Assembly (NCBI RefSeq): GCF_024757985.1
Contig: NZ_CP103289.1
Location: 3,720,001-3,784,000 of the forward strand
Source: Cellulomonas sp. NS3
GTDB lineage: Bacteria > Actinomycetota > Actinomycetes > Actinomycetales > Cellulomonadaceae
Length of the DNA stretch: 64,000 bases
Reading direction: 5' to 3'
The translations under genes were made by a program, and so were the position numbers. Below, in pieces: positions 196-11,205 of this stretch. Every line of letters starts with the position of its first letter. Position 1 is the first letter of the stretch. The notes beneath the pieces were generated by a model that ran no database searches, was not told the origin of the DNA, and was given only the letters and a program-made list of their open reading frames with translations.

Positions 196-1839
196 TCAGT
201 AGGTGAAGGCAACCGTCCGCTCGCGGAGCTCGTCCGAGAGCCGGGCGAGCTCGACGACGGAGGCGCTCATCTGCGCGAGCACGTGCGAGCTGGTCTCGGC
301 GGCCGAGGCGACGCCGGTGATGTTCGCGGCGATCTCGCCCGAGCCCGCGGCGGCCTCCTGGACCCCGCGCGACATCTCGGTCGTCGTCGCGGTCTGCTCC
401 TCGACCGACGACGCGATCGTCAGCTGGAAGTCGTTGATCGAGCCGATGATGTGCGTGATCTGCTCGATCGCCGCGACGGCCCCCGTGGTGTCGAGCTGGA
501 TCGCGTCGACGCGGCGTGCGATGTCCTCGGTGGCGCGGGCGGTCTCGCGCGCGAGCTCCTTGACCTCGCCCGCGACGACCGCGAAGCCCTTGCCGGCCTC
601 CCCGGCGCGCGCCGCCTCGATGGTGGCGTTCAGCGCCAGGAGGTTGGTCTGCTCCGCGATGCTCGTGATCGTCTTGACGACGTCGCCGATCTCCGAGGAC
701 GAGACCCCGAGCCGGGCGACGGTCTGCGTGGTGTGCGCCGCGACGCCGGTCGCGTCGGAGGCGACCCTGGCCGCCTGGTTGGCGTTCTGCGCGATCTCGC
801 GGATCGAGGCGCCCATCTGCTCGGCCCCGGCGGCGACGCCGTGCACGTTGCGGTTGACCTCCTCCGCGGCGGCCGCGACCACCCCGGCCTGCGCCGACGT
901 CTCCTGCGAGCTCACCGCGACCTGGGCGTTCGACGACGCCAGGTCCTGCGCCGCCGCGGCGACGGTCCGTGCGGTCTCGACGACGCCGCCGAGCGTCTCG
1001 CGCAGCGACGCCTGTGCGGTCGACAGCGACGCGGCCATGCGACCCGTCTCGTCGCGGCCCGGCACGTCGGCCGTGACCGTGAGGTCGCCCTCGGCCATCG
1101 CGTCGAGCGAGCGGTGCACGGCCTGGATGGCCCGGCTGGTGCGGCGCGCGACGGCGACCGCGAGCGAGCCGGCGCCGAGCGACCCGACGACAAAGGCGAT
1201 CGCGAGGACCACGATGGTCCGGTCGACCTCCGCGCGGCTCTCCGCGAGGATCGCGTCGACCTGCGAGTCGATCTGGCCCTGCGCGAGCGCGAGCGCACGG
1301 CCGGCCCACATCGGGTCGGCGGCGACGCTGGCCCCGATCGCCTGCTCGAGCCCGTCGACGTCGCCCGCCTGGGCGAGCGGGACGAGGGTCGCGTCGCGGT
1401 AGGTCAGCCACGCGGCCCACCGGTCCTGGAAGTCCGCCCACTGCTGGGTCTCGGACTGCGGGAAGTCCGCGACGGCCGCGATCTGCCGCTCGACGTCCCG
1501 GTCGTTCCACGCCTGGCTCTCGGTGAGCTGCAGGCGCGTCACGTCGTCCGTGGCACCGGCCTGCTGCCGGACGAGCAGGTGGCTGCGGGCCTGCGCCGTG
1601 CGCAGCTCCGCCATCGCGGTCTGCAGCTGGCCCGTGAGGCCGGACATCTCCTCCAGGTTCTGCCCCGCGCGCCACAGCGCCACGCCGCCGGCGCCGCCGA
1701 CGAGGCCGAAGACCCCGACGAGGGCGAGCATCGCGACGGTGATCTTCGTGCCCACGGAGCGGTCCCAGAACCACGACGCCCGCGAGGAGCGGGTGGCCGG
1801 GGCGGTCGGGCCGTGCGGGTCGGTCGTCGGTCGTGCCAC
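196..1839 (-). CDS. Methyl-accepting chemotaxis protein (MCP), 547 aa
   Basis: Membrane chemoreceptor that would control CheA activity through CheW. A cytoplasmic leader of about 30 residues is followed by a first membrane helix (about 33-55), an extracellular domain of about 150 residues, a second helix (about 205-228), a HAMP region and a long coiled-coil signalling domain. The conserved hairpin tip is clear ([20 protein letters not shown], then [15 protein letters not shown]). The protein ends RTVAFTY. The start is separated by one base from the stop of the sugar-binding lipoprotein gene, so the two are surely co-transcribed. That makes the lipoprotein a plausible ligand-loaded partner. 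The signalling half is nearly the same as that of the MCP at 2997-4748, which points to duplication. Confidence 0.95.
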
Positions 1840-1840
1840 G

Positions 1841-2977
1841 TCAGCTCAGCTCCTGCGCCGTGTAGTAGCCGCCGTCCACCAGGACGGCCTCGTAGTTCTC
1901 GCGCGTCACGACCTGCGGGGTCAGCAGGTAGGACGGGACGACCTTCACGCCGTTGTCGTAGGACGTGACGTCGTTGGTCTCGGGCTCGGCACCCTCGAGC
2001 AGCGCGTGCACCATGGCGACGGCGACCTCGGCGAGCTGGCGGGTGTCCTTGTAGACCGTCGCGTACTGCTCCCCCGCCACGATCGACCGCGCCGAGTCGA
2101 CCTCGGCGTCCTGGCCGGTCACCGTCGGGAAGGGCTGCGCGTCGGTGCCGTAGCCGATGCCGCGCAGCGACTCGAGGATCGCGCGGCTGAGGCCGTCGTA
2201 GGGCGACAGCACGCCGTCGAGCGTCACGCCCGTGCCCGTGTACGCGGGCAGCAGCTCCTGCATGCGCGCCGTGGCGTTCTTCGGGTCCCACGCCGGCGTC
2301 TCGATCGCCGCGAAGTCCGTCTGCCCCGAGGGCACGACGAGCGTGCCGGCGTCGAGGTAGGGCTGCAGCACCGACATCGCGCCCTCGTAGAAGACGGTCG
2401 CGTTGTTGTCGTCGGCCGAGCCCGCGAAGAGCTCGACGACGAACGGCCCGGGCGCACCCGTGGGCTGGCCCCCCGCGTCGAGCACCCCGATGCCCTGCAG
2501 CAGGGTCGTGGCCTGCTGCACGCCGACGCGCTGGTTGTCGAACGTCGCGTAGTAGTCGACGTCGGGCGACTCGCGGATCAGGCGGTCGTAGGCGATGACC
2601 GGGATGTCCGCGGCGGCCGCGTCCGCGAGCACGTCCTTGAGGGCGACACCGTCGATCGAGCCGACGACGAGCGCGTCCGCGCCCGCGGCGATCATCGCGG
2701 AGAGCTGCTCGACCTGCGTCGGCACGTCGTTCTCCGCGTACTGCAGGTCGACGCCGTACCCGAGCGCCTCGAGCTGGTCCTGGACGTTCTCGCCGTCCCC
2801 GATCCAGCGGTCCGACGTCGTCGTGGGCATCGCGACCCCGACGAGCGGGACGTCGACGGCGCCCGTCGAGCCCACCGCGCCGCAGCCGGTGAGGGCGAGC
2901 GCGAGCGTGGTCAGGCCCGCGGCGCACCAGAGCGTGCGGCGGCGGGCTGCGGTGCGTGCGTGTGCGTGCGTGGTCAT
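1841..2977 (-). CDS. ChvE-like sugar-binding lipoprotein, 378 aa
   Basis: Extracellular solute-binding protein of the periplasmic-binding-protein type I fold. A basic, hydrophobic leader ends in the lipobox LALTGC (Cys32), so it should be lipid-anchored outside the membrane. Blocks such as [52 protein letters not shown] and GQDAEV, and the ending VLVDGGYY, match my memory of Agrobacterium ChvE and other multiple-sugar (xylose, galactose, arabinose, glucose) binders. The family normally feeds an ABC transporter, but no ABC ATPase or permease gene is visible beside it. Instead it sits between two MCP genes, 19 bases after one and 1 base before the other. I infer a role in chemotactic sugar sensing; the exact sugar is unknown. 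Confidence 0.9.
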
Positions 2978-2996
2978 GGGTCCTCGGTCCGGTCGG

Positions 2997-4748
2997 TCAG
3001 TACGTGAAGGCGGCCGTGCGGCCGCGCAGCTCCTCGGAGAGCCGCGCGAGCTCGACGACCGAGTCGCTCATCTGCGCGAGCACGCGCGAGCTGGTCTCGG
3101 CGGCCGACGCGACGCCCGTGACGTTCGCGGCGATCTCCCCGGAGCCCGCGGCGGCCTCCTGGACCCCGCGCGACATCTCGGTCGTCGTCGCCGTCTGCTC
3201 CTCCACGGAGGAGGCGATCGTCAGCTGGTAATCGTTGATGGAGGCGATGATGTGGGTGATCTCCTCGATCGCCGCGACCGCCTGGCGCGTGTCCACCTGG
3301 ATGGCCTCGACGCGCTTCGTGATGTCCTCGGTCGCCAGGGCCGTCTCGCGCGCGAGCTCCTTGACCTCGCCCGCGACGACCGCGAAGCCCTTGCCGGCCT
3401 CGCCGGCGCGCGCGGCCTCGATGGTCGCGTTCAGCGCGAGCAGGTTGGTCTGCGCGGCGATGCTCGTGATCACCTTGACGACGTCGCCGATCTCCGACGA
3501 CGAGACCCCGAGCCGCGCGACGGTCTGCGTGGTCGTCTCGGCGACGCCCGTCGCGTCCGTCGCGACCTTGGCCGCCTGGTTCGCGTTCTGCGCGATCTCG
3601 CTGATCGACGCGCCCATCTCCTCGGCGCCCGCCGCGACGACGTGCACGTTGCGGTTGACCTCCTCGGCCGCGGCCGCGACCACGCCGGCCTGCGCGGAGG
3701 TCTCCTCGGAGCTCGCGGCGACCTGCGCGTTCGCGGCGGCGAGCTCGTGGGCCGCGCCCGCGACGGTGCTCGCGATCTCGACGACGCCGACGAGGGTCTC
3801 GCGGACCGCCGCCTGCGCGACGCCGAGCGCCTCCGCCATGCGCCCGAGCTCGTCGCGGCTGCGCACGGGGGCCGGGACCGTGAAGTCGCCGCCCGCCATC
3901 GCCTCGAGCGACGCCTGCACCTCGCGCGCGGCCCGCCGGATCGACATCGCGGTCTGGTACCCGAGAGTGACGACCACGACGAGCGCCGTCCCGAGCGTCA
4001 GCACCAGCGCCGCGACAGCCCGCCGGGACTGCTGCTCGGCCTCCGCGGCCACCGACGTGAAGTATGTGGTGGTGTCCTGGTCGAGCGCCTCGAGCGTCGC
4101 CTCGAGCCGGTCGATGAGCGGCTGGCTCACGTTCTGCACGAGGCTCGAGTAGTACGGGGTGTCGTTCTCCAGCGCGGCCGGCACGAGCTGGACGTCGCGC
4201 ACCTTGATCCACTGCGCGTAGGCGATCTTGAAGTTCTCCCACGTCTCGCCGCCGCCGCCCACGGCGTCGAGGTCGGCGATCGCGGCCTGCAGCGCGGCGT
4301 CGTTCTCCTTCTGGCGCGCCAGCCACTCGTCCTGCAGCTGCTCCTTCTCGAACGCCGCGAGCTGCGCGACGATGAGCCGCGCCGTCGTGACGCTCTTCTG
4401 GACCTCGGCACGGCTCGCGACGAGCGTCTCCTGGAGGCGGGCGAGCTCGGCGGTGCGGGCGGTGATGCCCTGCATCGTCACCACGGCCGCGCCGCCCGAG
4501 ACCGCCGCGACGGCGGCGAGCAGCAGGATCGACGTGAGGATCTTGGTCCGCACCGAGCGGTCGCGCACGACCGCGAGCACGCCGTGGGCACGCCCGGGGC
4601 CGCCGTCGGAGCCCGTCGTCCCGCCGTCGCCCGGCGCGGCGGGAGCCGGCGCGCCGGCACCCGGGACGAGGCCGGCGCTCTCACGCCGGGCGAGCAGGTC
4701 GGCGCCGCGGCGCAGCAGCGACCGCGCGTCCCGAGTCGTCGTGCTCAT
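2997..4748 (-). CDS. Methyl-accepting chemotaxis protein (MCP), 583 aa
   Basis: Chemoreceptor with a Gly/Pro/Ala-rich cytoplasmic leader of about 65 residues, a first membrane helix (about 69-93), an extracellular helical domain of the four-helix-bundle type, a second helix (about 240-262), a HAMP segment and the MCP signalling domain. The hairpin tip reads [20 protein letters not shown] and the protein ends RTAAFTY. It is the first gene of an operon that continues into the ChvE-like lipoprotein and the second MCP. A FliA-type promoter lies at 4789-4816. The ligand domain differs clearly from that of the downstream MCP while the signalling domains are nearly identical, so the two may sense different ligands, or free and protein-bound forms of one. 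Confidence 0.95.
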
Positions 4749-4788: not shown

Positions 4789-4816
4789 ACATCGACCGGG
4801 CGCGGGCCCAGTTGAA
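4789..4816 (-). promoter_or_regulatory. FliA-type promoter for the MCP / sugar-binding protein / MCP operon
   Basis: On the minus strand this reads TTCA, 16 bases, GTCGATGT. It is the weakest member of the set (one change in the first box, C to T in the second), but the spacing is exact. It lies between the cheW stop (4838) and the MCP start (4748), about 34 bases before the ATG. Confidence 0.55.
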
Positions 4817-4837: not shown

Positions 4838-5257
4838 TCAGGTGGCGGTCGCCGCGTCGACGTCGAGGACGAGCAGGAGGTCGCCCTCGAGCTTGTACGC
4901 CCCGAGGATCAGCTCGCGCAGCTCCGCGTCGAGGGTGTCGGGCGGCTGCTCGAACCGCTCCGGGCCGACCTCGACGACGTCGCCGATCTCGTCGACCAGC
5001 AGGCTGATCGGCTCGCCGGCCACCTGGACGACGACCATCATCGGCTCCGCGTCGTCGGCGAGCGGCTCGAGGCCGAGCCGGGGCCGCAGGTCGATCGTCA
5101 GGACCACCTGGCCCCGGAGGTTCACGAGGCCGGCGGTGCCGACCGGGGCCAGCGGGACGCGCGTGCGCACGTGCGAGCGCAGCGCCTCCTGGACCCGGGT
5201 CACGTCGACCCCGTACAGGCTCCCGCCGAGCGTGAAGGTCACGTACTGCACGGTCAC
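4838..5257 (-). CDS. cheW: Chemotaxis coupling protein CheW, 139 aa
   Basis: Scaffold that links MCPs to the CheA kinase. The single CheW SH3-like domain is recognised from VQYVTFTLGGSLYGVDV at the N-terminus, GLVNLRGQVVLTIDLRPRLG in the middle and ISLLVDEIGDVVEV. The start chosen is the GTG at 5257, whose last two bases plus one form the cheA stop (GTGA overlap), typical of translational coupling. A GTG two codons further in is the alternative. The size is normal for the family. It is probably expressed from the cheA promoter. Confidence 0.95.
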   Translation of the reverse strand: MTVQYVTFTLGGSLYGVDVTRVQEALRSHVRTRVPLAPVGTAGLVNLRGQVVLTIDLRPRLGLEPLADDAEPMMVVVQVAGEPISLLVDEIGDVVEVGPERFEQPPDTLDAELRELILGAYKLEGDLLLVLDVDAATAT

Positions 5258-7683
5258 ACCCCTGCCGTCTCGAGCTCGGACGCGCGCCGCTGCTGCGGCA
5301 CGACGACGTCGTAGAACGCCGGGTCGGCGGCCATGACCGCGGCCCGGACGTCGAGCAGCTCGGTCACGCGCTCGTGCAGGACCGTCGAGCCGGTCAGGCC
5401 CGCGTCCTCGATGTCGCTGTGACGCGAGACGTCGTCGTCGATGATGTCGACGATCTCGTCGACCACGAGCCCGACGCTGCGGCCCGCCCGCGTGTACACG
5501 ACGAGCAGGAGCTCGTCCTTGCGGGCGCTGTCGAACACCCCGAGCACCCGGTCGAGGCGTGCGAGCGGCAGGATCGTCCCGCGGTACTGGATGACCTCGC
5601 GGCCGCCGACGAGCTCGACCTGGTCGATGCGCACGTGCTCGAGCCGCGCGACGGACGCGAGCGGCATCGCCACGCGGCGCCCGCCCCCGATCCCCGCGAC
5701 GAGCAGCTGCTCGACGACGCGCTCCGTGACCTCCTGCACCGCGCCGCGGCGCTCGCGTGCGTGCTGCTCCCCCTCCGCGACGAGCGCGCGCCGCGCGATC
5801 GCCTGGACGTCGAGGATCAGCGCGACCGCACCGTCGCCGAGCACCGTGGCGCCCGCGTAGATGCCGATCGCCTTGAGCCGCGCCGAGAGCGCCTTGACGA
5901 CGATCTCCTCGGTGTTGAGGACCCGGTCGACCAGGAGCCCGAAGCGCTGGTGGTCGGCCTGGACGACCGCGATGACGGTCGAGGACCCCGGCTCGACCGG
6001 GATGCCGAGCACGTCCGCGAGCGACACCAGCGGCAGCAGCTCGCCGCGCAGCCGGTACACCGCGGCGTTCTGGATGCGCTCGATCCCGGCGCCGGCCCGC
6101 TGGCCGTCGAGGGCCACGAGCTCGAGCAGGCTGACCTGCGGGACGGCGAACAGGTCGCCGCCGCACACGACGGTGAGCGCGGGCATGATCGCGAGCGTCA
6201 GCGGGATGCGCAGGCGCCAGACCGTCCCCTCGCCGAGCGTCGAGTCGACGTCGACGGTCCCGCCGATCGCCTCGATCTTGGTCCGCACGACGTCCATGCC
6301 GACCCCGCGGCCGGAGACGTTGGTGACGGCCTCGGCCGTCGAGAAGCCCGGGAGGAACAGCAGCTGCATGAGCTCGGGCGGGGTCATGAGCATGACCTGC
6401 TCGGGCGTGCGCAGGCCGCGCTGGACGGCCTTCGCGGCGACCTTCTCGGTGTCGATCCCGCGGCCGTCGTCGGCCACCTCGACGACGACCTGACCGCCCG
6501 CGTGGTACGCGCGGAGCGTCAGCAGGCCGCGCGCGGACTTGCCCGCGGCGACGCGCTCGACGGGCGACTCGATCCCGTGGTCGACGGCGTTGCGCACGAG
6601 GTGCGTGAGCGGGTCCTTGACGGCCTCGAGCAGCCCGCGGTCGAGCTCGGTGTCCCGGCCGACCATCTCGAGCTGGACCTCGCGGTCGCACGCGGCGGCG
6701 AGGTCGCGCACGACGCGCGGCATCTTCGACCACACGTGGTCGATGGGCTGCATGCGGGTCTTCATGACCCCCTCCTGCAGCTCGCCCGCGATGAGGTTGA
6801 GGCGCTGCGCGGAGCGGACCAGGTCGACGTCGGAGCGGTCGCCCGCGAGCCGGCTGATCTGGTTGCGCGAGAGCACGAGCTCGCCGACCTGGCGCATGAG
6901 GGCGTCGAGCAGCTCGACGTCGACGCGGATCGAGGTCTCGGAGCTCGTGGACGCCGACGTGGGCGCGGCCGGTGCGGCGGGGGCCGGGGCGGTGGGCGCT
7001 GCGGGCGCGACCGCCGGGGCCGGGGCGGCGGCGACCGGCGCGGGCTGCTCGGGCGCCGTGGCCTGCTGGGTGGCGGTCTCGACCGCAGCGGTCGGCTCCG
7101 TGCCCGAGGCGGCCGCGGCACGCGCCGACCGGGGGACGATCACGCGCGACGGGTCGGCGGCGCGCACGGCCGGCTTCGCGGCGGGCGCCTCGTCGGGCGC
7201 GGTGCTCGCGGCGTCGGTCGCGGGGGGCGTCGTAGCGCCGATGACGTCGTCCGACGGCACTGCGGCGGCCACGGTCTCCGGAGACTCGGACGCGTCGCGC
7301 CCGGCCTGCAGGCGGCCGACCGCGTCGAGCACGCCGTCGATGTCGACCGCGCCCTCGGTGCTGTCCGCGGCGATCGCGGTGAGGATCTCGCGCACGACGT
7401 CGACGAGGCGCAGCAGGACGTCGGTCGTCGCCTGGTCCATCGAGCGCTTGCCGTCGCGGAGCTCCACGAGGAGGTTCTCCCCCGCGTGGGTCACGCGCTC
7501 GAGCCGGCCGTAGGCGAGGAAGCCCGCGGTGCCCTTGATCGTGTGGATCGTGCGGAACACGCTGCCGAGGAGCTCGCGCGACCCCGGGGACTCCTCGAGG
7601 GCCACCAGGTCCTGGTCCAGCTGGTCGAGGTTCTCGTGACTCTCGACCAGGAACTCACGGACGATGTCGTCCATGTCCTCCAC
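5254..7683 (-). CDS. cheA: Chemotaxis histidine kinase CheA, 809 aa
   Basis: Kinase that phosphorylates CheY and CheB in response to MCPs. Domains in order: HPt with the phospho-accepting His47 in RTIHTIKGTAGF; a long Ala/Pro/Thr-rich linker (about 125-225); a dimerisation domain (VELLDALMRQVGELVLSRNQ); an HATPase domain with HLVRNAVDHGIE, DDGRGID and GRGVGMDVVR; and a C-terminal part that appears to hold two successive CheW-like domains. I prefer the GTG at 7683 (GGGAGGG four bases upstream). The further upstream ATG at 7734 would lie inside the -10 box of the predicted promoter. No cheY, cheB or cheR gene is visible in the window, so they must lie elsewhere. Confidence 0.93.
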   Translation of the reverse strand: MEDMDDIVREFLVESHENLDQLDQDLVALEESPGSRELLGSVFRTIHTIKGTAGFLAYGRLERVTHAGENLLVELRDGKRSMDQATTDVLLRLVDVVREILTAIAADSTEGAVDIDGVLDAVGRLQAGRDASESPETVAAAVPSDDVIGATTPPATDAASTAPDEAPAAKPAVRAADPSRVIVPRSARAAAASGTEPTAAVETATQQATAPEQPAPVAAAPAPAVAPAAPTAPAPAAPAAPTSASTSSETSIRVDVELLDALMRQVGELVLSRNQISRLAGDRSDVDLVRSAQRLNLIAGELQEGVMKTRMQPIDHVWSKMPRVVRDLAAACDREVQLEMVGRDTELDRGLLEAVKDPLTHLVRNAVDHGIESPVERVAAGKSARGLLTLRAYHAGGQVVVEVADDGRGIDTEKVAAKAVQRGLRTPEQVMLMTPPELMQLLFLPGFSTAEAVTNVSGRGVGMDVVRTKIEAIGGTVDVDSTLGEGTVWRLRIPLTLAIMPALTVVCGGDLFAVPQVSLLELVALDGQRAGAGIERIQNAAVYRLRGELLPLVSLADVLGIPVEPGSSTVIAVVQADHQRFGLLVDRVLNTEEIVVKALSARLKAIGIYAGATVLGDGAVALILDVQAIARRALVAEGEQHARERRGAVQEVTERVVEQLLVAGIGGGRRVAMPLASVARLEHVRIDQVELVGGREVIQYRGTILPLARLDRVLGVFDSARKDELLLVVYTRAGRSVGLVVDEIVDIIDDDVSRHSDIEDAGLTGSTVLHERVTELLDVRAAVMAADPAFYDVVVPQQRRASELETAGV

Positions 7684-7730
7684 TGTGCCCTCCCACCCGT
7701 GACCGGCGGCCGTCCCGCCTGACGCACCGC

Positions 7731-7758
7731 CCATCGGTCACCCGCGCCCGGACGTGAG
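7731..7758 (-). promoter_or_regulatory. FliA-type promoter for cheA-cheW
   Basis: On the minus strand this reads CTCA, 16 bases, ACCGATGG, an excellent match to the shared element. It lies about 48 bases upstream of the GTG start at 7683. Its position argues against translation from the ATG at 7734. Confidence 0.7.
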
Positions 7759-7964: not shown

Positions 7965-9485
<1,521 letters not shown>

Positions 9486-9687: not shown

Positions 9688-11205
9688 ATGCGCAGCACAG
9701 CACGACACGTCCGGCGCGCGGTGGTCGCCGCCGGCCTGACGCTCGCGACGGCGGCCGCCGGACTCGTCCTGACGACACCGCCACCCTCCGCCGCGACGGC
9801 CCGCACTGCGCCGGCCGCGCTGACCACCGGGTGCTCGGTGACCTACACCGCACCCAGCCAGTGGCAGACCGGCTTCACCGCGAGCGTCCGGGTCACGAAC
9901 CACGGACCCGCCGTCGACGGGTGGGCCCTGACCTGGACCTTCCCTGGCAACCAGAGCGTGACGAACGCCTGGAACGCCGTCGTGTCGCAGAGCGGTGCGC
10001 GCGTGACCGCGCGGAACGCGCACTACAACGCGCGCCTGGCGACCGGCGGGACGGTCGAGCTCGGCTTCAACGGCTCGTCCACCGGCAGCAACCCGGCACC
10101 CACCGCGTTCGCGCTCGACGGCACGCCGTGCACCGGGCCGGGCCCGGTCGTCACCCCGACGCCGACACCCACGGCCACCCCGACCGCGACCCCGACACCC
10201 ACGGCCGCCCCCACCCCCACGCCGACCGCCAGCACCCCGCCGCACGCTCTGCCGTCGAGCTTCCGCTGGTCGTCGACGGGCGCGATCATCTCCCCGGAGC
10301 GGGACGCGTCGCACGACCCGGTCGCGATCAAGGACCCGTCGGTCGTCTACGCCGAGGGCCGGTGGCACCTGTTCGCGTCGGTCGTCGAGAACGGCGGCTA
10401 CAACCTGGCCTACACGAGCTTCGCCGACTGGTCGCAGGCGTCGTCGGCCCCCCACCACTACCTCGACCGCTCGGCGATCGGCGCCGGCTACCGGGCGGCC
10501 CCGCAGGTGTTCTGGTTCGAGCCGCACGGGCTCTGGTACCTCGTCTACCAGACCGGCGCCGGCGGCTCGTACTCGACGACCCGCACGATCTCGGACCCGT
10601 CCTCGTGGTCCGCCCCGAGGAACTTCTACGCCGAGCAGCCCCGGATCATCCGGGAGAACATCGGCGACGGCTACTGGGTCGACTTCTGGACGGTCTGCGA
10701 CACGGCGACGTGCTACCTGTTCTCGTCCGACGACAACGGCCACCTGTACCGCTCGGAGACGCCGCTCGCACGCTTCCCGCACGGGTTCACGAACACGGTG
10801 ATCGCGATGGAGGACCCGAACCGGTACCGGCTCTTCGAGGCCTCGAACGTCTACAAGGTCGCCGGTCAGGACACCTGGCTCCTGGTGCACGAGGCGTTCG
10901 ACACGGACGGCAAGCGGTACTTCCGGTCGTGGACCGCGCCGTCGATCGAAGGTCCGTGGGCGGCGCTGGCCGACACCGAGGCGAACCCGTTCGCCCGCGC
11001 GAGCAACGTGACGTTCCCGGGCGGCGCCTGGACGCGCGACATCAGCCACGGGGAGATGATCCGCTCGGGCACCGACCAGACGATGGAGATCAGCGCCTGC
11101 GACCTGCGGTACGCCTACCAGGGGATGGACCCCGCGTCGACGGCCGACTACAACGACCTGCCCTGGCGGATCGGGCTGCTCACGCAGACGAACGCGGCCT
11201 GCTGA
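9688..11205 (+). CDS. Secreted CBM2-GH62 alpha-L-arabinofuranosidase, 505 aa
   Basis: Removes arabinose side chains from arabinoxylan outside the cell. After a signal peptide (about 1-37) comes a CBM2 (about 47-148), a Pro/Thr linker (about 150-187) and a GH62 catalytic domain (about 188-505). The domain begins LPSSFRWSSTGAI and includes IKDPSVVY, GAGYRAAPQVFWFEPHGLWY and WTRDISHGEMIRSG. From family knowledge, Asp216 in KDPS and Glu384 in LFEASNV are likely catalytic residues; I could not align them. The CBM2 and the signal peptide are very similar to those of the GH10 xylanase but the module order is reversed. The ribosome binding site (GAGGGAAGAGG) is strong. The stop lies 4 bases from the convergent csrA stop. 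Confidence 0.94.
   Translation: MRSTARHVRRAVVAAGLTLATAAAGLVLTTPPPSAATARTAPAALTTGCSVTYTAPSQWQTGFTASVRVTNHGPAVDGWALTWTFPGNQSVTNAWNAVVSQSGARVTARNAHYNARLATGGTVELGFNGSSTGSNPAPTAFALDGTPCTGPGPVVTPTPTPTATPTATPTPTAAPTPTPTASTPPHALPSSFRWSSTGAIISPERDASHDPVAIKDPSVVYAEGRWHLFASVVENGGYNLAYTSFADWSQASSAPHHYLDRSAIGAGYRAAPQVFWFEPHGLWYLVYQTGAGGSYSTTRTISDPSSWSAPRNFYAEQPRIIRENIGDGYWVDFWTVCDTATCYLFSSDDNGHLYRSETPLARFPHGFTNTVIAMEDPNRYRLFEASNVYKVAGQDTWLLVHEAFDTDGKRYFRSWTAPSIEGPWAALADTEANPFARASNVTFPGGAWTRDISHGEMIRSGTDQTMEISACDLRYAYQGMDPASTADYNDLPWRIGLLTQTNAAC

Follow-up and report, generated by a model that had tools for sequence, protein, structure and literature searches.

A ChvE-type sugar-binding lipoprotein encoded with one chemoreceptor lineage in Cellulomonas and related actinobacteria

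A chemotaxis cluster with a ChvE-type gene

We analysed a 64,000-nt stretch of the Cellulomonas sp. NS3 genome (contig NZ_CP103289.1 of assembly GCF_024757985.1, positions 3,720,001-3,784,000), hereafter called the window. Gene calls and Pfam matches gave a chemotaxis cluster in the order cheA-cheW-MCP-ChvE-MCP-MCP-cheB-cheR, in which transporter genes are absent (Table 1). The GTG start codon of the downstream chemoreceptor, MCP-B, lies one base past the stop codon of ChvE on the same strand, and 19 bases separate the end of the upstream chemoreceptor, MCP-A, from the start of ChvE; this spacing suggests that MCP-A, ChvE, and MCP-B are co-transcribed. Left of window position 1, we found a third chemoreceptor (MCP-C), cheB, cheR, a receiver, CheX, a second receiver, and a small ORF in which Pfam detected no match. 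The interval from cheA to the csrA/flhF/flhA-like genes holds, on the opposite strand, two genes (window positions 8061-9485 and 9688-11205, +) that were named by eye as secreted and carbohydrate-active-enzyme-like, one of them being xylanase-like with a carbohydrate-binding-like tail.

Table 1. Features of the chemotaxis cluster, with positions in the window
Feature	Positions	Strand	Basis
MCP-B, proposed cognate receptor: TM1, 155-residue sensor domain, TM2, HAMP, MCP signalling domain	196..1839	-	PF00015, PF00672
MCP-B sensor domain (alignment A1, residues 54-208), predicted four-helix bundle	1216..1680	-	alignment and AlphaFold
MCP-B W111 codon (A1 column 58)	1507..1509	-	Trp tracks ChvE presence
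ChvE-type sugar-binding lipoprotein, 378 aa	1841..2977	-	NF040907, PF13407, PDB 3urm
MCP-A, upstream chemoreceptor, variable neighbour	2997..4748	-	4HB_MCP_1 match below cut-off; MCP tree
FliA (sigma28)-like site TCAA-N15-GTCGATGT, between cheW and MCP-A	4789..4815	-	pattern search
cheW	4838..5251	-	PF01584
cheA	5254..7734	-	Hpt, H-kinase_dim, HATPase_c, CheW domains

The initial annotation had described a ChvE-like lipoprotein between two MCPs, with no ABC permease or ATPase gene beside it and a FliA-type promoter upstream, and it had named the sequence left of position 1 as the place to look for ABC genes. The coordinates of the lipoprotein were right, and the protein has a lipobox and passes the NF040907 model. 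No ABC permease or ATPase gene was detected around the unit by tblastn and Pfam, and a transporter left of position 1 was rejected, since chemotaxis genes occupy that place. The promoter call agrees with a candidate FliA-like site, which is also present upstream of MCP-A in the close relative G001.

The search for this site started from what we take to be the FliA consensus of Salmonella and Bacillus. The first hand-made pattern had 2 matches in the window, as compared to 0.13 in single-base shuffles, and occurred in 2 of 31 cheW-MCP gaps and 2 of 7 stand-alone pairs. A refined pattern, with at most two mismatches allowed, was found in 11/31 gaps and 5/7 stand-alone pairs against 0.8% of shuffled gaps, and these counts are partly circular because the consensus was refined after the matches had been seen; the remaining 20 of the 31 gaps have no site at this level. 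With regard to expression, we treat the putative FliA-like sites as supportive only.

Gene context and phylogeny of ChvE

The protein scores 487.5 bits against the NCBIfam ChvE model NF040907, above the cut-off of 460, and thus belongs to the ChvE family; it also matches PF13407 (E 4.8e-54). Its residues 45-377 align with ChvE of Agrobacterium (3urm, E 3.6e-120), which places both in the same sequence family. A lipobox, LTGC, predicts lipid attachment at Cys32 (codon 2882-2884), leaving a putative tether of 12 residues to the binding domain.

Proteins of the ChvE-GguA-GguB type are encoded together with an ATPase and a permease, and this is not the arrangement at the unit studied here: tblastn at E <= 1e-8 detected no GguA- or GguB-type ATPase or permease in the 30 kb around it. 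By gene context, ChvE is not part of an ABC transporter unit. Elsewhere in the genome, far away, there are three SBP-ATPase-permease sets of this type, each with its own ChvE-like SBP. The GguA/GguB cut-offs are passed by all three ATPases and by two permeases, the third permease falling just below that for GguB (436 vs 450). The third set (L012, positions 1407000-1422000 of the same genome) lies near a GH68 levansucrase/invertase gene identified by Pfam, as well as a further invertase-like gene and two LacI-like regulators recognized by eye; its SBP sits on a long branch distant from the MCP-linked clade.

A search of 200 genomes of the family with ChvE gave matches at E <= 1e-90 in 141, and 60 loci from 58 genomes were fetched, comprising the 58 best matches after that of the genome itself, one further match (three above it were skipped), and one weaker match of G004. 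In 49 of these 60 loci, the next gene downstream, in the same orientation, encodes an MCP. The others have an ATPase gene downstream (9), an SBP gene following an ABC set (1), or a position at a contig edge (1). A ChvE-like gene of G005 (L224) lies at the edge of its contig. Counting the unit of strain NS3, an MCP is found directly upstream as well in 43 of 50 MCP-linked family loci. This survey covers the best ChvE matches; the homolog of G165, at 55% identity, later proved to be MCP-linked, and further MCP-linked ChvEs may exist below the cut of this survey. In 15 short loci of the genus, no MCP match was detected. Among the homologs in a named genome collection, for which 80 of 586 relatives were kept, an ATPase gene is directly downstream in 75 and an MCP gene in five, namely those of C. 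triticagri, Actinotalea soli, Actinotalea sp. C106, C. humilata, and Georgenia satyanarayanai.

We compared 107 ChvE sequences (52 MCP-linked, 54 ABC-linked, and 1 undecided) in a quick tree computed without bootstrap, after twelve duplicate rows had been dropped. All 52 sampled MCP-linked ChvEs fall on one side of a single branch (SH-aLRT 100), apart from the 54 ABC-linked sequences, and the MCP/ABC label changes once on the tree, as compared to a mean of 35.6 changes when labels are shuffled. The ten rhizobial ChvEs that were fetched have an ATPase gene downstream, and no lipobox was found in these ten sequences.

Besides their neighbours, the two groups differ in sequence. All 52 MCP-linked ChvEs carry a lipobox-like motif, with a pattern that was widened after its first form had missed four, and their predicted tethers are short (median 13, range 8-23, n=52). 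In ABC-linked ChvEs the median is 20 (range 10-30; 84 of 95 rows with a lipobox), and in those from the same family it is 23 (range 19-30, n=20), in a comparison where ranges overlap and rows are related by descent. The residues that we take to be the pocket motifs of ChvE (W58, D131-R132, D189-N192, W230, D261, and Q289-D290 in precursor numbering) are retained in at least 98% of the MCP clade and at least 95% of 46 ABC-linked rows, eight far rows having been dropped from the latter set. Many other positions are conserved in both groups as well. However, ABC-linked ChvEs show at least 90% conservation at 13 positions, T97-K98, F195, L228-R229, Q236, and Y247 among them, where no more than 29% of the MCP clade retains the residue.

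These data bear on a dual use of ChvE, in which the protein would serve MCP-B and, like MglB, also deliver sugar in trans to at least one of the distant GguAB-type transporters. The presence of the three distant sets and the pocket residues shared by both clades would fit such a role, but each of those transporters has its own SBP, and the 13 lost positions, the shorter tether of the MCP clade, and the FliA-like character of the upstream site all speak against it. We regard dual use as unlikely.

The partner receptor and its sensor domain

A tree was built from 157 MCPs, taken from the fetched loci and eight other regions of the same genome with contig-cut MCPs left out; it gave a long-branch warning, mostly among the other MCPs. 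A single set of 53 contains all 50 MCPs that directly follow ChvE; its other three members are the upstream MCPs of L204, L205, and L209. The downstream label needs 2 changes as compared to a shuffled mean of 42.4. The 41 directly upstream MCPs require 14 label changes, of which 11 are forced by well-supported branches. The sensor region is strongly conserved in the downstream MCPs and hardly at all in the upstream ones. In addition, for 8 of the 52 MCP-linked ChvEs, no MCP was detected immediately upstream within the fetched stretch (L146, L194, L200, L211, L213, L216, L230, and L233, of which L213 and L216 are on short contigs). Because the downstream MCPs form one conserved lineage and the upstream ones are of mixed descent, MCP-B is the constant partner of ChvE and MCP-A a variable neighbour. 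Of the MCP-binding protein-MCP order that the initial annotation proposed to look for in related genomes, the downstream receptor is constant and the upstream one is not.

Distances between proteins point in the same direction. In the 21 loci where all four proteins are present, the distances of ChvE and of the MCP-B domain are correlated once CheA is taken into account (partial r 0.38, permutation p 0.0005), while the partial correlation with the upstream MCP is 0.02, a control that is weak because the upstream MCPs are not orthologous. In the eight other MCP regions of the genome, where genes were called with a simple script, Pfam detected no SBP among five neighbour genes picked by eye, one of which gave no Pfam match.

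The initial annotation had supposed that the paired receptors read free and loaded states of ChvE, or two ligands. Such reading by both MCP-A and MCP-B could draw on the adjacency of MCP-A, on the frequency of upstream MCPs in the family, and on the MCP-A sensor domain, which is weakly related to that of MCP-B (32 bits) and scores 19.9 bits against 4HB_MCP_1 (PF12729), under the cut-off of 27. Against it stand the mixed descent of the upstream MCPs, their poorly conserved sensor region, and the lack of correlation between MCP-A and ChvE distances beyond CheA, for what that control is worth. Only the downstream MCP is constant, and the MCP tree led us to reject the two-receptor model as the main reading; we consider it improbable.

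The MCP-B sensor domain spans 154-155 residues with 21 invariant columns across 50 sequences. For MCP-B of the window, no Pfam sensor match, including 4HB_MCP_1, was obtained at E <= 0.001, and no PDB sequence matched the domain at E <= 1. An AlphaFold model of the TM-LBD-HAMP stretch has a mean pLDDT of 91.5 and predicts a four-helix bundle, of the kind that defines 4HB sensors, between two TM helices that were taken from sequence and model. The modelled bundle resembles the LytS and TorS domains that were solved with their binding proteins, and among the bundles ranked closest by Z are receptors that bind their ligands directly, such as MCP2201. Foldseek returned no match to the model at E <= 0.001.

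We searched for this domain with a profile built from ChvE-adjacent rows, taking matches wherever they were located. In the family, 59 of 221 genomes have the domain at 190 bits or more, and the next best match has 103 bits. An unbroken ChvE gene lies directly upstream in 56 of the 59 (strain NS3 itself, the 49 family loci, G165, G957, G950, G961, G964, and G951), a split one in 1, and none in 2. The split gene, in G151 (L307, about 5854-6854), consists of two pieces in different frames and is possibly a pseudogene or an assembly error; the receptor beside it retains the Trp discussed below. The two MCP-B homologs without an adjacent ChvE are those of G166 (L308) and G019 (L309). In the order, 17 of 396 genomes have the domain above 200 bits, all 17 with ChvE upstream, including G408, G456, and G545, which were absent from the profile; five other matching genomes reach at most 46 bits. 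A scan of 200 genomes of a second family found the domain only in G408, G456, G545, and G327, and a phylum-wide sample of 396 genomes found it in the genome of strain NS3 only. At L311, L312, L329, and L330 (G066, G174, G961, and G959), a more distantly related MCP-B-like receptor (92-103 bits) occurs, and no adjacent ChvE was found there.

One residue of the domain follows the presence of ChvE. Column 58 of alignment A1, which corresponds to W111, is Trp in all 61 ChvE-adjacent copies, the split copy included (63/63 before two duplicate rows were dropped). It is Ser (TCG) in both strong copies without an adjacent ChvE, G166 and G019, and Gly, Ala, Ala, and Ala in the four 92-103-bit paralogs, so that Trp is absent from six of six copies beside which no ChvE was found, two of the four paralogs being on short contigs. 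The best tree needs two changes for this pattern and well-supported branches force one, and as few as one or two evolutionary events may underlie the association. G166 is placed with C. humilata, in which both ChvE and Trp are kept, with a support of 87, below the starred level. Columns 51, 83, and 87 show a weaker pattern of the same kind, and columns 19 and 136 a less clear one. According to the helical moment, which uses no coordinates and does not imply a single patch, columns 51, 58, 80, 83, and 87 are directed off the hydrophobic face.

The similarity of the modelled bundle to direct-binding receptors and the two genomes with MCP-B and no adjacent ChvE could also mean that MCP-B senses a small molecule directly, with ChvE a neighbour that has a separate task. 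However, ChvE stands beside the receptor in nearly all family genomes that have it, and the otherwise invariant W111 is Ser in both genomes that lack an adjacent ChvE, which makes direct sensing a rather remote alternative, slightly behind reading by both receptors. In favour of a transport-type SBP gene inserted by chance into a chemotaxis operon, the sequence still passes the ABC-transporter ChvE model. The ChvE tree and the domain scan contradict such an event, with one clade beside the same receptor lineage in many genomes, and it is very improbable.

A proposed sensor subunit for sugar taxis

We propose, with a probability of roughly 80%, that, on a single occasion in this lineage of actinobacteria, a ChvE clade gave up transport to become the dedicated sensor subunit of MCP-B for sugar taxis. 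As the initial annotation had put it, the protein would be a chemosensory rather than a transport binding protein, a view for which gene context, phylogeny, and co-inheritance with the receptor, all read from sequence, provide good support. ChvE-family proteins normally work in sugar uptake, but here the gene is tied to one swimming receptor, and the protein therefore most likely reports the position of sugar instead of importing it. In the proposed mechanism, lipid-anchored ChvE would bind a monosaccharide, and its short tether would hold it close to the membrane, where it could contact the helical-bundle sensor domain of MCP-B. The docking face is probably outward and would include W111, and docking would change CheA activity and, presumably, swimming. 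For the reading of the binding protein, W111 is the first candidate among the receptor residues, followed by Q104, Q133, D136, and R140.

We hold more tentatively, as something possible but rather doubtful, that ChvE and MCP-B make up a standing receptor of two proteins, in which the lipid-tethered sugar sensor stays docked on the helical bundle through a surface comprising W111 and the pair is expressed as part of the flagellar regulon. If this were true, the unit would be a module for sugar taxis in bacteria with a binding protein that has departed from transport permanently, and cells could track plant-polymer sugars independently of both uptake and sugar-induced gene expression.

SBP-assisted chemoreception is already known, and BasB and CosB of Halobacterium salinarum are lipoproteins dedicated to taxis. 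Part of one report describes their copurification with transducers (PMC3579733). BasB-BasT and CosB-CosT, in which a binding protein is paired with one transducer, are the nearest precedent: here, too, a binding-protein gene stands one base from a single receptor gene, an arrangement of 56 of 59 family genomes, and the lipobox-like motif of all 52 sequences predicts an anchored protein. Unlike the present bacterial protein of the sugar-binding ChvE family, those systems are archaeal and their ligands are amino acids or osmoprotectants. In E. coli, the corresponding pairs are MglB or RbsB with Trg and MBP with Tar. According to passages of PMC4990184, MglB serves a transporter as well as a receptor, whereas the ChvE described here is encoded only with a receptor.

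Other binding proteins are known to act on signalling partners. In the sections of PMC6321045 that deal with this, XylFII and TorT bind their receptors whether or not they carry ligand, MBP must be loaded to bind Tar, and ligand-loaded binding proteins stimulate four-helix-bundle chemoreceptors. LytS and TorS are histidine kinases that control transcription, unlike the chemoreceptor MCP-B. CuaD, a predicted lipoprotein, binds the kinase CuaS and the transport SBP CuaA does not (PMC10384115, in part), and the actinobacterial lipoprotein GlnH is assumed to contact GlnX (PMC9769921, in part). These are signalling binding proteins, as we propose for ChvE, but their outputs are transcription or metabolism, not taxis. 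ChvE of Agrobacterium is described in parts of PMC4086400 as a periplasmic protein that mediates sugar chemotaxis and interacts with VirA; in contrast, the protein studied here is a predicted lipoprotein. It is likely that ChvE-MCP-B works like BasB-BasT or XylFII-LytS.

The apparent novelty is that, in flagellated actinobacteria, the genes of a ChvE clade accompany a single receptor lineage and no transporter. A search of titles and abstract openings, which reached a minority of subscription papers, found no earlier description of such a unit, and the passages checked in a Cellulomonas genome paper with chemotaxis terms (PMC8194134) do not describe it. The unit offers a clean system in which a binding protein would switch a chemoreceptor and the signal is not confounded with transport, and where it can be addressed which receptor residues read the binding protein. 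For actinobacteria that degrade polysaccharides, it is also a candidate system of sugar taxis. Automatic naming relies on a curated model that labels this protein as a component of an ABC transporter, and our data point instead to a distinct clade kept, together with its own receptor, for chemotaxis.

Two features of the fetched loci are recorded here for completeness. At six rhizobial chvE loci (L158, L164, L165, L169, L173, and L175), a second, divergent ChvE-like match of about 30% identity adjoins the gene on the opposite strand. An identical ChvE occurs, on contigs of equal length, in L109, from a metagenome-assembled genome titled 'Proteobacteria bacterium', and in L225, from the family genome G041, and the title of the former looks wrong.
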